A DNA stretch of 64,000 nucleotides, from NCBI GenBank assembly GCA_944376295.1, contig CALWCE010000005.1, positions 1 to 64,000 on the forward strand. Reading direction: 5' to 3'. Below the pieces are notes generated by a model. The model was not told the origin of the DNA. It did not search any database and worked only from the letters and a program-made list of their open reading frames with translations. This DNA is from an uncultured Clostridia bacterium (GTDB lineage Bacteria > Bacillota > Clostridia > Christensenellales > Borkfalkiaceae). Position numbers and translations under genes: made by a program. The first letter of the stretch is position 1, and every line of letters starts with the position of its first letter. This document shows positions 39,944 to 46,705 of the stretch, in pieces.

Positions 39944-41410
39944 ATGGAAGATTTCGGCGTTTATGAGGATATTGCCGCGCGCACGGGCGGGGAAATCTAC
40001 ATCGGGGTCGTCGGTCCCGTGCGGACGGGCAAATCGACGTTCATCAAACGGTTCATGGAGGAACTCGTCCTGCCCGAGGCGGACGGAGCCAAAAAGCAGC
40101 GCATGCGCGACGAACTGCCGCAGTCGGCATCCGGGAAGACGGTGATGACAACGGAGCCGAAATTTGTGCCTGAAGAAGCCTTTCCCGTCACCTTCGGGAA
40201 AGCCGTTGCGAACGTGCGGCTCGTGGATTGCGTCGGCTTTCCCGTGCGCGGCGCAGCGGGTTTCGAAGAGGACGGAGAGCCGCGCCTTGTCAAGACGCCG
40301 TGGAGCGACGCCCCCGTGCCCTTCGAACGGGCGGCGGAAGAGGGGACGCGCAAGGTGATGCGCGACCATTCGACGATCGGCATCGTCATGACGACGGACG
40401 GCTCCGTCACGGGGATCGGACGGGAAGACTATGAAGACGCCGAGGCGCGCTGCATCGCCGAAATGAAAGAGGCGCAAAAGCCGTTTGTCATCCTTCTCAA
40501 CTGTAAACTGCCGCAAAACGCCGAAGGACTGCGTTCTTCTTTAGAAGAACGATATTCTTCGCCCGTCATCGCCGTCAATTGCGAGGAGATGGGGAGGGAA
40601 GAACTCACCCTCGTCTTGGAGCGCGTGCTATATGAATTCCCCGTGCTCACCATCGATATCGAACTTCCCGAATGGATGCGCATCTTCGATGCCGATTCGC
40701 CTGTTGTAGCAGATGCGCTCGCTTCTATTCGTGCCGTTGCGCCCAAGATCGAGAAAATGAGCGACTGCGCACTTTTAGACACGCTCTTTCACGAGAGCGA
40801 GCGGCTGCGGCCGCCCGTTTCCGTTCAATTAGAACCCGCAGAGGGACGGGCGACGGTGCGAACCGAAGCAAAAGAGGGCGCCTTCTACCGCGTGCTTGGC
40901 GAAATGTGCGGCGCGGACATCGGAGATGATTTTGCTCTCATGAGCTATGTCGCTTCCCTCGGCGATGCGAAGAAACTTTACGATCGCGTCGGCAAGGCAT
41001 TCGAGGAGGCGAAAGAGTACGGTTATGGGATCGTGCCGCCCGAAGACGATGAGATGGATCTCTCGGAACCCAAGGTCGTCAAAAAAGGAGGGAGAGTGGG
41101 CGTCGACCTGCATGCGCATGCCCCGAGCTATCACATCATCCGCGTCGATCTTACGGGAGAGGTGCGGCCCGCGATCGGAAACGAAGAGCAGAGTGAGAGC
41201 TTTGCAAAGACGCTGGCGGAAAACATGGCAACAGAACCCGAAGCCGCCTGGAATACCAATATGTTTGGCAAAACGCTCAAAGAGCTCCTCGGCGACGAAC
41301 TCTACGTCAAAAACCGCTCCATGGCGGAAAACGTGCAAAAGAAGATGCGACGCACGGTGACGCGCATCGTCAATGAAGGGAAAGGCGGAGTCATCTGCAT
41401 TCTCATCTGA
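39944..41410 (+). CDS. spoIVA: Stage IV sporulation protein A
   Basis: 488 residues, full family length. The N-terminal P-loop is VGPVRTGKSTFIKRF, followed by switch-like TTEPKFVPEEA and VRLVDCVGFPV segments. The C-terminal region ends GKGGVICILI, typical of the membrane-targeting tail. SpoIVA is an ATPase that polymerises on the forespore outer membrane and forms the coat basement layer. RBS GGAGGG precedes ATG 39944. This gene is the strongest evidence that the organism makes endospores. Confidence 0.97.
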   Translation: MEDFGVYEDIAARTGGEIYIGVVGPVRTGKSTFIKRFMEELVLPEADGAKKQRMRDELPQSASGKTVMTTEPKFVPEEAFPVTFGKAVANVRLVDCVGFPVRGAAGFEEDGEPRLVKTPWSDAPVPFERAAEEGTRKVMRDHSTIGIVMTTDGSVTGIGREDYEDAEARCIAEMKEAQKPFVILLNCKLPQNAEGLRSSLEERYSSPVIAVNCEEMGREELTLVLERVLYEFPVLTIDIELPEWMRIFDADSPVVADALASIRAVAPKIEKMSDCALLDTLFHESERLRPPVSVQLEPAEGRATVRTEAKEGAFYRVLGEMCGADIGDDFALMSYVASLGDAKKLYDRVGKAFEEAKEYGYGIVPPEDDEMDLSEPKVVKKGGRVGVDLHAHAPSYHIIRVDLTGEVRPAIGNEEQSESFAKTLAENMATEPEAAWNTNMFGKTLKELLGDELYVKNRSMAENVQKKMRRTVTRIVNEGKGGVICILI

Positions 41411-41522: not shown

Positions 41523-42767
41523 ATGGGAAGAGTCGTTGTCATCGGCGGAGGAGCCGCGGGGCTTATGGCAGCCTATGCGGCGGGAAGCCGGGGCGCGCAG
41601 GTGACGCTTTTAGAGCGCAACGAAAAACTCGGAAAGAAGATCTATATCACGGGAAAGGGCAGGTGCAACCTCACCAATGACTGCCCGCCAGACGAATTTC
41701 TGGAAAACGTGGTGCGCGGCGGGAAATTCCTGACGGGCGCCCTTTGGGCATTCTCGCCCGAAGATATGATATCGATGTGCGAACGTTTCTCCCTTCCCGT
41801 TAAAGTGGAGCGCGGAAACCGCGTCTTTCCCGTTTCCGACCACGCGAGCGATGTTACAAAAATGCTGGAAAGAGCCTGCCTTTCTGTGGGAGTTGCCATC
41901 AAATTGCAGGAATATGTGAAGGAAATCGGCGTTTTGCATAGTACTATGCGTGACATAATAACGCAAAACGGCGTATATCCGTGCGAATCCGTCGTGATCG
42001 CGACGGGAGGACTCTCCTATCCTTCGACGGGCTCCACGGGCGACGGGCTGCGTTTTGCGAAAAGCCTGGGGCACAAGATCGCTCCGTGCGTGCCGTCGCT
42101 CGTCGGGCTCAACTGCAAAGGAGATTTTTCTTCTCTTCAGGGCGTCTCTTTGAAAAATGTGTGCTTGTATGCAACGCGTGGTGGGAAAGTCATCTTCTCC
42201 GAACAAGGGGAGATGCTGTTCACGCACTACGGCATCAGCGGACCGCTCGTCCTTTCTCTTTCCGCCCGCATCAACCGCCTTCCTTTTGCGGAACTCACCA
42301 CCTTTATCGACTTCAAACCCGCTCTCGATCGGGAAACGCTCGATGCTCGCCTCGTGCGCGATCTCAAGGAACGCAAAAACGAACAGATGAAAAACGTGGT
42401 GCGGGGGCTCCTTCCTTCCGCACTTTGTCTGCCTGTTCTCAAAGAGGCAGGGATCGATCCCTTTAAACAAGCCAACGCCGTGACGCGGGAAGAGCGCGCT
42501 CGCCTCCTTGACACGCTCAAATATTTCCCTATCGTTCTCACTTCGTTAAGGGGGTTTGAGGAGGCTGTCGTCACTTCGGGCGGCGTGGAGCTCAAGGACG
42601 TTTCTTCCAAGAAGATGGAGAGCAAGCTTGCCCCCGGCGTCTTCTTTGCGGGGGAAGTCCTTGACGTCGACGCCTTTACGGGCGGGTTCAATCTGCAGAT
42701 CGCTTTCTCGACGGGGATGGCTGCGGGCATTGCTGCCGCCCGCCACGCGGGAAAGATAAGCGAATGA
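41523..42767 (+). CDS. BaiN/HI0933-family FAD-dependent oxidoreductase
   Basis: 414 residues. FAD fold VVIGGGAAGLMAAYAAGSRG; GRCNLTND near residue 45; the ATGGLSYPSTGSTGDG signature near residue 165; C-terminal GEVLDVDAFTGGFNLQIAFSTGMAAG. The family (YhiN/BaiN) is widespread and mostly of unknown physiological substrate. A 21-base word that recurs elsewhere in the window falls inside this gene (41937-41957), encoding HSTMRDI in a loop before the ATGG motif. RBS GAGGAG precedes ATG 41523. Confidence 0.9.
   Translation: MGRVVVIGGGAAGLMAAYAAGSRGAQVTLLERNEKLGKKIYITGKGRCNLTNDCPPDEFLENVVRGGKFLTGALWAFSPEDMISMCERFSLPVKVERGNRVFPVSDHASDVTKMLERACLSVGVAIKLQEYVKEIGVLHSTMRDIITQNGVYPCESVVIATGGLSYPSTGSTGDGLRFAKSLGHKIAPCVPSLVGLNCKGDFSSLQGVSLKNVCLYATRGGKVIFSEQGEMLFTHYGISGPLVLSLSARINRLPFAELTTFIDFKPALDRETLDARLVRDLKERKNEQMKNVVRGLLPSALCLPVLKEAGIDPFKQANAVTREERARLLDTLKYFPIVLTSLRGFEEAVVTSGGVELKDVSSKKMESKLAPGVFFAGEVLDVDAFTGGFNLQIAFSTGMAAGIAAARHAGKISE
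41937..41957 (+). repeat. Recurrent hairpin word, copy A (inside a CDS)
   Basis: Contains GTACTATGCGTGACATA (41941-41957). The full 21 bases from 41937 are identical to 52624-52644. Weak hairpin TATG-CGTGA-CATA. Confidence 0.8.
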
Positions 42768-42768
42768 T

Positions 42769-42797
42769 TTGACTTTTTTGCGCGCTTTGGCTATAAT
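42769..42797 (+). promoter_or_regulatory. Promoter of the aroH/cmk-plsC-ispH operon
   Basis: TTGACT (42769-42774), 17-bp spacer, TATAAT (42792-42797). Confidence 0.85.
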
Positions 42798-42831
42798 AAA
42801 AACATACGAAAGAAACCAAGAGGTGCATATT

Positions 42832-43839
42832 ATGACGGTGATCCGCGGAGCAACGACCATCACGGCAGACGAGCCGGAAGAGATCAGAAAGGCGGTCAAA
42901 GAACTTCTCGATCAGACGGTGAGCCGTAACGGCCTGCATCAGGACGAGATCCTGAGCATCGTCTTTTCGAGTACGTCCGATATCCATTCTTATTATCCCG
43001 CAAAGGCTGCAAGGGAGGCAGGCTATTCATCGAGCCCGCTCTTTTCTTCGCAGGAGCCCGACATCGAAGGGGGGCTTCCTCTGTGCATCCGCGTGATGCT
43101 CTTCGTCGAAAAGAACATCGAGCCGCATCATGTGTATCTCCGCGGCGCGCGCGTGCTGAGAAAGGACATCGCGACCAAGATCAACATCGCCATCGACGGG
43201 CCTGCGGGCAGCGGAAAATCGACGATGGCAAAGGCGCTTGCAAAGAGCATGAACATCCTCTATCTCGATACGGGCGCCATGTACCGCGCCTGCGCCCTCA
43301 AAGCGCTGAAGGAGCATACCGATCTTTTGGATGAAGCTGCCGTCATCGACTGTATGCGCGGACTCTCGCTCGAGATCGAATATGAAAACGGCGCGCAGAA
43401 GACCATCCTCGACGGCGAGGACGTCTCCGAACTCATCCGCAAACCCGAGGTTTCCATGGCGGCTTCCACGGTGTCGCAGTACCCCGCGGTGCGCCTGAAA
43501 ATGGTGGAGAAGCAGCGGGAGATCGCAGACAAAATGTCCTGCGTGCTCGACGGCAGAGACATCGGCACCTATGTGCTGCCCGAAGCCGACTTCAAGTTCT
43601 TCCTCACCGCCGATCCCAAAGTGCGGGCGCAGCGCCGCTATGACGAGCTCACCGCCAAAGGCTATTCGGTCGATAAGCAGGCGCTCGAAGAGGAGATCGT
43701 AAAACGCGACGAACAAGATTCCTCCCGCGCCTTCGCCCCCCTGAAACAGGCGGAAGACGCCGTACTCATCGACACCTCGAATCTGACGCCCGACGAAGTG
43801 CTCGCCGAAATGAAACGCACGATCCAGGAGAAGATCTGA
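42832..43839 (+). CDS. Fusion protein: AroH-type chorismate mutase + cytidylate kinase
   Basis: 335 residues in one uninterrupted frame. Residues 1-115 match Bacillus-type AroH: VIRGATTITADEPEEI with Arg5, YPAKAAR (Lys58, Arg61), Glu75, CIRVM with Arg87, and Tyr102 in HVYL. These are the equivalents of the AroH catalytic residues; the position of AroH Cys75 is Ser. Residues 117-335 are a complete CMP kinase: P-loop GPAGSGKST at 123-131, LDTGAMYRA, DGRDIGTYVLPEADFKFFLTA, and the RR...R lid. It would join prephenate formation to CMP/dCMP phosphorylation. ATG 42832 has an AAGAGGTG RBS. Operon with plsC and ispH-S1. Confidence 0.92.
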   Translation: MTVIRGATTITADEPEEIRKAVKELLDQTVSRNGLHQDEILSIVFSSTSDIHSYYPAKAAREAGYSSSPLFSSQEPDIEGGLPLCIRVMLFVEKNIEPHHVYLRGARVLRKDIATKINIAIDGPAGSGKSTMAKALAKSMNILYLDTGAMYRACALKALKEHTDLLDEAAVIDCMRGLSLEIEYENGAQKTILDGEDVSELIRKPEVSMAASTVSQYPAVRLKMVEKQREIADKMSCVLDGRDIGTYVLPEADFKFFLTADPKVRAQRRYDELTAKGYSVDKQALEEEIVKRDEQDSSRAFAPLKQAEDAVLIDTSNLTPDEVLAEMKRTIQEKI

Positions 43840-44576
43840 TGAAAGAAGCATCCGAGACCACGGAGAAGGCCGCCAAAACCGGCAAACAGACCGAAAAAAA
43901 GCAGGATCGCGTCAAACTCTTTCCCGCAAACAAGAAGGGATATCACAAGATGCCCCTCATGGACTTTTTACGCGCGATCTTTTATCCCATCCATGCGCTT
44001 TTGTATCCTTTCAAGCTGCACGGGTATAAAAAAGTAGGGCCGGGACCATATATCTATGTCGGTAATCACTACTGCCTGTGGGACGTTTTCTTCCCCGCGC
44101 ATACGACGAAGGACGGCATCCATTATCTTGCCAAGGATTCCATCCTGCACGCGCCCGTCATCGGCGGCTGGGCGAAGGGAGTGGGGGTCATCGGCGCCAT
44201 GCGCGACGGCACCGACGTGCATACCGTCATGGACGCCATGCGCGTGCTCAAAAACGGAGAGAAGATCTCCATGTTTCCCGAGGGGACGCGCAACAAGACG
44301 GGCAGCGACGAATTTCTTCCCTTCCACGGCGGTTCGGCGCTGCTCGCCATCAAGACGAAGACGCCCGTCATCCCGTTCGTCATCTGTACGCCCCCCAAGT
44401 TCCTCAGAAGGACGCATGTCGTCTTCGGCGAACCCATGGAACTTTGCGAATATTACGACAGAAAGCTCACGCCTGCCGAATATGAAGAGGCGGAAGAAAA
44501 GCTCAAAGCAAGGCTCTATGAGCTTCGTGCGAACTTCCGCGCCGAACAGGCTGCAAAGAAAAAGAGGAAGAAGTGA
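43839..44576 (+). CDS. plsC: 1-acyl-sn-glycerol-3-phosphate acyltransferase
   Basis: 245 residues. An N-terminal Lys-rich tail of about 35 residues and a membrane-associated helix (LRAIFYPIHALLYPF) precede the PlsC domain. Motif I is NHYCLWD (HX4D), motif III FPEGTRNKTG, and VIPFVICT follows. It acylates lysophosphatidic acid to phosphatidic acid at the inner membrane face. Its ATG overlaps the last base of the upstream stop (TGATG), and the stop overlaps the next gene (GTGA). The cmk-plsC-ispH order is common in Clostridia. Confidence 0.92.
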   Translation: MKEASETTEKAAKTGKQTEKKQDRVKLFPANKKGYHKMPLMDFLRAIFYPIHALLYPFKLHGYKKVGPGPYIYVGNHYCLWDVFFPAHTTKDGIHYLAKDSILHAPVIGGWAKGVGVIGAMRDGTDVHTVMDAMRVLKNGEKISMFPEGTRNKTGSDEFLPFHGGSALLAIKTKTPVIPFVICTPPKFLRRTHVVFGEPMELCEYYDRKLTPAEYEEAEEKLKARLYELRANFRAEQAAKKKRKK

Positions 44577-46705
44577 ACGGGATGCAGGTGCTTCTCGGAA
44601 AATATTGCGGCTTTTGTGCGGGGGTCAGAAAGGCGGTCGACAAAGCGCTTTGCGTTCCTTCGGAGAACACGTTTATCCTCGGCGAGCTCATCCATAATCC
44701 CGACGTCGTGGAGCGCATCCGCCTGCGCGGCATTCCGACGGTCGAGCGAGTGGAGGACGTACCCGACGGGGCGACCCTCCTCATCCGTTCGCACGGCGTG
44801 GGGAGAAGCGTCTACGAAGCGTGTGAACGACGCGGCATCCGTGTGATCGACTGCACCTGTCCTTTTGTCCGCCGTTCGCAGGGGATCGTCCGTGAAGAGA
44901 GCGCAAAAGGAAGGACGGTCGTTATCGTCGGGCATCCCGATCATCCCGAAACGGTAGGGCTGAAGGGGTGGATCTCAGACGGCGGGGAGGCGTATGTTTT
45001 TTCCTCTCCCGAGGACGATTTCAGCATTTTACGGGAGAAAGATCTCTCCGTGGTGGCACAAACGACCTTCTCGGAACAAAGTTTTTCGGAAACGTGCGAA
45101 AATCTTCGCAAAGTGTGTCAAAAAACAGTTGAGATTTTTAAGACGATTTGTTATACTACTGTATGGCGGCAGCGTGAAGCAGAAGAGATCGCCCGCCGTT
45201 CGGATGCTGTTCTCGTCATCGGCGGAAAGAACAGCAGCAATACCGGGAAATTATATGAGATCGCTTCCAAGAATTGCAGGCATGTAATATGGCTGCAAAA
45301 CGCGGAGGCGTTCAAGTATGAGGAAATTAAATTTTTTAATAGGGTAGGCGTCATTGCGGGGGCAAGCACTCCCGATTGGCAAACTCAGGAGGTTCTTTTT
45401 AAGATGGAAGAAAGCAACGCGGAAGTTCAGGCAACGACAATGCAGGATGTCGTTGAGGAGATGGGCAAAGAGGAGCGGTATAAGAGAGGGCAGATGATCA
45501 CTGCCAAGATCGTATCCGCTACGGACGAAGGGGTCTATGTGTCCGCTTCGGGCAAACTGGAGATTTTGCTCCCGAAAGAAGAGCTTGACTGCGAAACATA
45601 TAGCCGCGAGGAATATGCGGCAAAGGTCGGGGAAGAGATCGAAGTCATCGTGATGGAGGTCACTCCTCGTGTGAAGCTGTCCCAGAAGATGGTGAAAAAG
45701 CTCCGCGAAGAGGAGGAGATGCTTAAGGAGATCGAGGAAGGCAAGGAATTCTCGGTCACCTGCACCGGCTTCAACAAGGGCGGGCTCACTGCAGAGCTCG
45801 GGACTTATCCCGTCTTCGTTCCTGCAAAGGAGATCCGCACCGGTTATGTGCGCGATCTTGAAAAGTATGTCGGCAAGAAGCTTCGTCTGAAGCTGCTTGA
45901 GATCAGAAAGGAGCGCAGAAAGGAGATCATCGCTTCTCAGCGCGTCATCCTTGAGGCGGAGAAGGAAGCCCGCGAGGCTGCCAAGGCTGCCAAGGAAGAG
46001 GCATTCTTCGATTCCATCCACGTCGGCGACGTCGTCGAAGGCAAGGTGGAACGTGTGACCAACTTCGGTGCTTTCGTTTCCGTCAACGGTTTTGACTGCC
46101 TTGCTCACATCTCCGACCTCGCATGGTCGGGCGTCAAGAACGTGACCGACGTCCTCGAGATCGGCAAGCGTTATGAGTTCAAGGTGCTCAACGTCGACCG
46201 CGAGAAGAAGAAGGTCTCCATCGGTTACAAGCAGCTGCAGCCTCAGCCTTGGGATCTTGCGGCAGAGAAATATCACGAAGGGGATATCGTTCACGGTAAG
46301 GTCGTCCGCATCGTCTCCTATGGTGCATTCGTTGAGTTGGAGAGGGGCATCGATGGTCTTGTTCATGTGTCGCAGATCTCTCATGAGTGGCTCGACAATC
46401 CCACTTCCGTCCTTCAGATCGGCGAGGAGATCGACGCAAAGATCCTTGCGTTCAATCCTGCCGACAAGCGTATCACGCTCTCCATCAAAGCGCTTCAGCC
46501 CAAGCCCGAGCAGGAGTATCGCGAACCCCGCAACGACCGCGGCGACAGAGAGAATGGCCGCGGCAAGGGCAAGAAGGGCGGCAGGAAGAACTTCAACGCT
46601 CCCGAAGGCGAAGAGGACGAGTACAGAGAATGGAAGGAAGGCGGCTACGGCGGTGCTTCCATTGCAGAACTCCTTCACCTCGACGGCGAAGAGGAAGAGA
46701 AGTAA
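44573..46705 (+). CDS. ispH: IspH (HMBPP reductase) fused to S1-type RNA-binding domains
   Basis: 710 residues. Residues 1-280 are IspH: the [4Fe-4S] cysteines lie in CGFCAGV (Cys15), DCTCPFV and KTICYTT, and catalytic His/Glu in GHPDHPE. It makes IPP and DMAPP, the last step of the MEP pathway. Residues 300-670 hold four S1 domains (RGQMITAKIV; GKEFSVTCTG; VGDVVEGKVERVTNFGAFV; EGDIVHGKVVRIVSYGAFV), the last two canonical, followed by a Gly/Arg/Lys-rich tail. The fusion is known in Clostridia and stands in for ribosomal S1. I take GTG 44573 (GTGA overlap); ATG 44582 is an alternative. Confidence 0.95.
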   Translation: MNGMQVLLGKYCGFCAGVRKAVDKALCVPSENTFILGELIHNPDVVERIRLRGIPTVERVEDVPDGATLLIRSHGVGRSVYEACERRGIRVIDCTCPFVRRSQGIVREESAKGRTVVIVGHPDHPETVGLKGWISDGGEAYVFSSPEDDFSILREKDLSVVAQTTFSEQSFSETCENLRKVCQKTVEIFKTICYTTVWRQREAEEIARRSDAVLVIGGKNSSNTGKLYEIASKNCRHVIWLQNAEAFKYEEIKFFNRVGVIAGASTPDWQTQEVLFKMEESNAEVQATTMQDVVEEMGKEERYKRGQMITAKIVSATDEGVYVSASGKLEILLPKEELDCETYSREEYAAKVGEEIEVIVMEVTPRVKLSQKMVKKLREEEEMLKEIEEGKEFSVTCTGFNKGGLTAELGTYPVFVPAKEIRTGYVRDLEKYVGKKLRLKLLEIRKERRKEIIASQRVILEAEKEAREAAKAAKEEAFFDSIHVGDVVEGKVERVTNFGAFVSVNGFDCLAHISDLAWSGVKNVTDVLEIGKRYEFKVLNVDREKKKVSIGYKQLQPQPWDLAAEKYHEGDIVHGKVVRIVSYGAFVELERGIDGLVHVSQISHEWLDNPTSVLQIGEEIDAKILAFNPADKRITLSIKALQPKPEQEYREPRNDRGDRENGRGKGKKGGRKNFNAPEGEEDEYREWKEGGYGGASIAELLHLDGEEEEK

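Follow-up and report, generated by a model that had tools for sequence, protein, structure and literature searches.

A stretch of 64,000 nucleotides of DNA from a clostridial gut bacterium, referred to here in its entirety as the window, carries a gene in which an AroH-type chorismate mutase is joined to a complete CMP kinase. The fusion itself is confirmed and appears not to have been described before: no account of an AroH-CMK protein was found in the literature searched, including papers that name both enzymes and omitting most subscription journals and protein databases, nor does the main text of a survey of gene fusions (PMC4921024) contain the terms cytidylate, CMP kinase or AroH. Taken as a whole, the observations are probably best explained by a bifunctional AroH-CMK protein that originates from recurrent fusion within an operon, and which tethers its two enzymes rather than coupling them. 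Both halves are ordinary, and it is their pairing, which joins two unrelated pathways, that is of interest.

The fusion gene (42832..43839, + strand) extends from an ATG at 42832 to a TGA at 43837-43839 and encodes 335 amino acids in a single open frame that includes two full domains and no internal stop codon, as the preliminary description had stated. The mutase domain (Pfam CM_1, residues 2-113; 42835..43170, + strand) scores 122.9 bits over a cut-off of 27, and is also recognized by the NCBIfam AroH model TIGR01796 (113.3, cut-off 82), while the CMP kinase domain (Cytidylate_kin, residues 119-332; 43186..43827, + strand), whose P-loop GPAGSGKS occupies residues 123-130, reaches 256 bits in Pfam (cut-off 26) and 244.7 with the NCBIfam cmk model TIGR00017 (cut-off 135.55). 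The two are linked by a junction comprising residues 114-118 (ATKIN; 43171..43185, + strand), the stretch from LRKD to IDG spanning 15 residues. An internal start that would generate a free CMP kinase from this gene is not supported, there being no in-frame ATG, GTG or TTG at the junction; among relatives, an ATG is found there in 3 of 50 fused rows of the window family (f1) and in L129, and a GTG or TTG in other rows. The closest named record, from Candidatus Gallimonas gallistercoris (class Clostridia), is 97% identical in the fusion protein.

The gene lies in the order spoIVA, yhiN-like flavoprotein, aroH-cmk fusion, plsC-like acyltransferase and IspH-S1. The flavoprotein gene upstream (41523..42767, + strand) scores 438.4 bits with TIGR00275 (cut-off 183.8). 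The plsC-like gene (43839..44576, + strand; PF01553, 70.5 bits, cut-off 23), whose ATG overlaps the stop codon of the fusion (ATGA), falls under the cut-off of NCBIfam TIGR00530 (71.2 for 102.95), and is followed by an IspH-S1 fusion (44573..46705, + strand; NF000907, 630.9 bits, cut-off 624), the start of which overlaps the plsC stop; the operon setting with plsC and ispH-S1 given in the preliminary description is supported. A Shine-Dalgarno-like AGAGGTG, noted by reading of the sequence, precedes the fusion ATG by 6 bases (42819..42825, + strand), and a promoter-like TTGACT-17-TATAAT, with 11 of 12 consensus matches, lies between yhiN and the fusion gene (42769..42797, + strand); the latter is a consensus match only, the 6-kb region containing 7 such sites as compared with 2.8 (sd 1.8) in shuffled sequence. 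Since this site occupies the gap before the fusion, and the starts of the next two genes overlap the preceding stops, the fusion may open the transcript. Further upstream, spoIVA (39944-41410; 571.9 bits, cut-off 459.9) is a sporulation gene, which suggests that the lineage may sporulate.

The mutase half retains the residues that were proposed to form its active site. R5, K58, R61, E75, R87, Y102 and R110 align with R7, K60, R63, E78, R90, Y108 and R116 of Bacillus subtilis AroH; the catalytic residues of the latter are Arg7, Glu78, Arg90 and Tyr108, all of which have counterparts in the window protein (R5, E75, R87, Y102), and its Cys75 corresponds to Ser72. The predicted fold agrees with that of the solved AroH enzymes. 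Throughout the 73 fused rows analyzed, R5, R61, R87 and R110 are kept in all 73, Y102 in 72 and E75 in 67. The kinase half displays 14 of 14 conserved positions checked, 13 of which are kept in 73/73 fused rows and the remaining one in 72/73, and its structural alignment reveals 40% identity to 2cmk and 44% to 1q3t. In the six of seven pairs for which it could be computed, dN/dS was 0.03-0.13 for AroH and 0.08-0.15 for CMK; purifying selection acts on both halves.

The distribution of the fusion was followed in genome samples of increasing breadth. A search of 61 genomes of the window genus and others identified CM_1 in 35; the 37 same-genus genomes, including the window's own, comprise 32 with a full match, four with none and one with a weak match, and all 28 same-genus loci returned, again with its own included, carry the AroH-CMK fusion. 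Within the order sample, CM_1 was present in 87 of 396 genomes, 36 of which were fused; 29 of the 34 listed members of f1 have CM_1, and upon reading of all 29, 28 proved to be intact fusions and the 29th (G339) to be frameshifted in the kinase. Fusions of this sample beyond f1 were found in G053 (family f18) and in six f32 genomes. The class sample contained CM_1 in 87 of 391 genomes and the CMK fusion in 19 of the 87, of which 14, all read, fall beyond the order. In the order and class samples, unread genomes with short frames were scored as unfused by frame length alone; G002 was scored as fused from one frame shared by the genus search and the PF02224 search rather than from a read locus. 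In the phylum sample (218 matching genomes), at least two AroH-CMK genomes, of one genus, were found among the matches listed, where five of the eight frames of at least 280 aa were read (two AroH-CMK, one AroH-DAHP synthase and two AroH-HisC), G1050, G854 and G984 being left out of the reading. A further search for relatives returned 41 loci, in which both halves were matched in 33, the kinase alone in seven and the mutase alone in one. Each of the resulting 73 fused rows represents a different genome; together they cover 12 families, and f1 contributes 50; the fused L058, and L152, a duplicate of L081, were omitted from the counts of junctions, residues and trees. The fusion is hence near-universal in the sampled AroH-bearing members of f1 and scattered in other Clostridia.

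These data bear directly on the concern that an assembly or sequencing error could have joined two genes. Such an error might be suspected given that aroH and cmk are neighbors, that the named relatives come from metagenomes or uncultured organisms, and that one relative, G339, has a broken frame. However, the same fused frame recurs in every same-genus locus returned and in 12 families in all, and both of its halves are under purifying selection, so that an artefact has next to no probability and is ruled out by the many separate assemblies. In G339 itself (L152, 3998-5015) the kinase half is spread over two frames and is the sole PF02224 copy of the genome.

Many other Clostridia keep aroH and cmk as separate genes that lie side by side. 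In a set of 80 AroH loci taken by place, cmk occurs in 73, plsC in 74, ispH in 74 and yhiN in 69, the yhiN-like flavoprotein being mostly upstream. The 43 unfused rows listed, minus a frameshifted one and two in which cmk is more than 1 kb away, leave 40 adjacent pairs, of which nine overlap and eight share a frame with a single stop codon between them, where the starts of split pairs are guesses from the last start codon 5' of the P-loop motif. The step from split to fused can be followed within one genus of f18, where the fused G053 reads GAT TTG GTG CGT TAT and the split G082 reads GAT TTG GTG TAA GTT ATG CGT TAT; the G053 junction lacks nine bases of G082, which correspond exactly to stop, one codon and start (TAA GTT ATG). 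G053 is represented by one assembly of 220 contigs, so the f18 case needs confirmation. Small changes of this type, deleting the stop and start between aroH and cmk, would suffice to fuse the frames, and the fusion probably arose because the two genes are long-standing, closely packed neighbors in a clostridial operon.

Trees of the two halves suggest that this has occurred repeatedly. They were calculated from 91 rows, 49 of them fused, with same-genus rows thinned to 12 and the frameshifted L081 omitted, and on all of them the counts of state changes include gains and losses without distinction. The fusion state changes 12 times on the joint tree, seven of which are forced by well supported branches, and 13 times on the tree of CMK alone, with six forced; with L132 and five rows flagged as long or odd removed, 11 changes are required, of which six are forced, and on this reduced set a single fused clade was rejected by the AU test (p-AU 9.8e-13), although that group was picked by label and the test wants it named beforehand. 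The order-level tree of CMK requires five changes of the fused label, all five forced by starred branches. It thus seems, from the sequences, that aroH and cmk were joined more than once.

The recurrence of the fusion also evokes the question of a regulatory link, by which nucleotide binding by the kinase would tune the mutase at the AroH tail, or prephenate would tune the kinase. The C-terminal tail of AroH is normally mobile and lies close to the active site, and it is at this point that the kinase is attached: the gap between the aligned domains is 0-5 residues in 70 of 73 fused rows, and the span from LRxD to IDG is 14-15 residues long in each of the 50 f1 rows, and 13-17 residues long in 71 of the 73, a tight spacing that in f1 could hint at a functional arrangement. 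A second enzyme of the aromatic pathway, AroA, is likewise fused to Cmk (NCBIfam PRK11860). However, the other two junctions extend to 25 and 44 residues, AroH has DAHP synthase and HisC as further fusion partners, cmk stands alone in four of the five f1 members in which AroQ is the mutase, and the structure predicted for the monomer (pTM 0.65) has no confidence in the arrangement of the domains; a regulatory link is consequently regarded as unlikely. A bolder form of the same idea, namely that AroH-CMK is a repeatedly evolved enzyme whose kinase replaces the mobile tail and makes mutase flux follow the nucleotide state, is very unlikely; if true, it would imply that aromatic amino acid synthesis tracks pyrimidine supply in gut Clostridia. 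With no metabolite in common between the two reactions, channelling of substrates would not be expected.

The supply of both activities was examined in 54 genomes, 41 of them fused and 30 of them members of f1. No AroQ-type mutase was detected in any of the 41 fused genomes searched, and each holds one full PF02224 kinase gene, which is the fusion itself (frameshift-split in G339); in the fused G280, G330 and G724 a second, weak PF02224 match clears the cut-off together with its neighbors. Since two additional full-length proteins of the Cytidylate_kin2 type (PF13189) are encoded by G000, the fusion counts as the only recognized full-length PF02224 CMP kinase, and not surely as the only CMP kinase. 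Chorismate synthase is present in 41/41 fused genomes, prephenate dehydratase in 32 and dehydrogenase in 28 (above cut-off), and at least one of the latter two in 36. In the window's own genome PheA adjoins a probable DAHP synthase, aroE, aroB and aroC lie together and PDH_N is present, where DAHP synthase, aroB and aroE were named by reading of the sequence.

Could the mutase half be mainly structural, for example by trimerizing the kinase, with its catalysis dispensable? In five fused genomes (G009, G192, G233, G254 and G604), no prephenate dehydratase or dehydrogenase scores above cut-off; these genomes do possess chorismate synthase, and their fusions keep R5, R61, E75, R87, Y102 and R110. 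In addition, the catalytic Glu is replaced by Ala or Gln in fused rows of f42 (four rows) and f149 (two rows), so that the mutase may be altered in these six; Ala is also found at this position in one split f42 member. The loci L123, L124, L125, L127 and L165 (f42, genus g227) and L130 and L131 (f149), with Ala or Gln for the catalytic Glu, display PLLDM or PLLDV and an Asp at the position of Cys75. Against a structural role stand the near-invariance of the catalytic residues, the purifying selection on this half, the retention of a prephenate user in most fused genomes, and the manner in which AroH and AroQ stand in for one another in f1: of the 30 members searched, 25 have AroH and lack AroQ, and the remaining five have AroQ and lack AroH. 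Loss of catalytic purpose from the mutase half is hence very improbable.

AroQ shares a frame with PheA in four of these five f1 members, and four have a standalone cmk at the place that the fusion takes in the operon. A careful CMK tree puts this gene of G393 among its fused congeners (98/95) within the f1 clade (99/98), which is most simply read as loss of the mutase half, and no clear remnant of the mutase was seen by eye at the start of this gene; the other three standalone copies form a group of their own (93/89) inside f1, and may represent losses or genes that were never fused. This natural exchange of AroH for AroQ indicates that the mutase half seems to be retained as a mutase and that the kinase can do without it. 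The fifth of these f1 members, G078, a 98% complete genome with AroQ and PheA in one frame, has no PF02224 or PF13189 match. The split G639 contains both AroH and AroQ, so the two mutase types do not strictly exclude each other. In genus g19 of family f19, plsC comes next after aroH at 14/14 loci read (e.g., L135, L139), and no cmk was found between the two; no full-length Cytidylate_kin was detected in 21 g19 genomes, five of which have weak partial matches, and full Cytidylate_kin2 is present only in G331 and G410.

The tethering of two operon enzymes, one of the two roles offered in the preliminary description, thus fits best, since the same gene order occurs unfused, the fusion state changes repeatedly, AroH has other fusion partners and cmk stands alone where AroQ is present. 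We favor a recurrent operon fusion that is mildly useful or neutral, and which probably serves to keep two enzymes conveniently together instead of creating a regulatory connection, cross-regulation presumably being absent. The product would be one bifunctional cytoplasmic protein, whose AroH half would convert chorismate to prephenate, toward phenylalanine and tyrosine, and whose C-terminal half would phosphorylate CMP and dCMP. The AroH half would be expected to form a homotrimer with active sites between the subunits, as in Bacillus, which would place three CMP kinases on the C-termini of the mutase, and the likely benefit would be fixed 1:1 production, or else mere neutrality. The lineages provide a natural series (genes split, overlapping, one stop apart, fused, and with the mutase apparently lost again) that allows one to ask why neighboring genes fuse without a shared intermediate. 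The arrangement also matters for annotation, as a tool that assigns a single name to each protein could overlook the sole recognized chorismate mutase of these genomes, which would then appear unable to make phenylalanine and tyrosine.

Each half has monofunctional relatives. B. subtilis AroH (CM_1, TIGR01796; PDB 1com, 2cht, 1dbf) ends in a short free C-terminal tail, whereas in the window protein the tail runs into the CMP kinase, and Cys75 is replaced by Ser; bacterial CMP kinase (TIGR00017; PDB 2cmk, 1q3t) is matched by an equally complete kinase half, but one with an N-terminal mutase. Regarding fusions of cmk, the preliminary description listed IspH/S1 and PanC as partners; this list was incomplete, as NCBIfam adds AroA-Cmk (PRK11860) and Cmk-Der (PRK09518). 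AroA-Cmk also places an enzyme of the aromatic pathway N-terminal to Cmk, the partner there being EPSP synthase; the window protein scores 182 with this model (cut-off 943), and the literature search yielded no paper on AroA-Cmk. This fusion parallels the synteny of aroF (EPSP synthase), cmk and rpsA described by Bonner et al. 2005 (PMC1173090), according to which the adjoining of aromatic genes to cmk-rpsA is an old pattern. PanC-Cmk (PRK13477) and Cmk-Der, mentioned in PMC11450739 and PMC9695335, also join Cmk to another enzyme, with different partners, and the window protein remains below both cut-offs (229.5 for 524, and 181.7 for 953, respectively).

Chorismate mutase has its own history of fusion. 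AroQ-PheA, AroQ-TyrA and the exported CM-CDT, as treated in PMC10520331, differ from AroH-CMK in their AroQ fold and aromatic-pathway partners, and an AroQ-DAHP synthase fusion appears in PMC5526877. For exported CM-CDT no catalytic benefit of fusing was found, according to PMC10520331, and by analogy it may be taken as the nearest precedent for the purpose of the present fusion. AroH itself is fused to other enzymes in at least three genomes of the phylum, to DAHP synthase (L132, 3980-5206) and to an aminotransferase, HisC (L133, 3701-5530; L134, 2056-3603, the latter named hisC by NCBIfam). In these proteins the C-terminus of AroH is likewise joined to an enzyme, but the partner is an aromatic-pathway enzyme or an aminotransferase, and not a nucleotide kinase.
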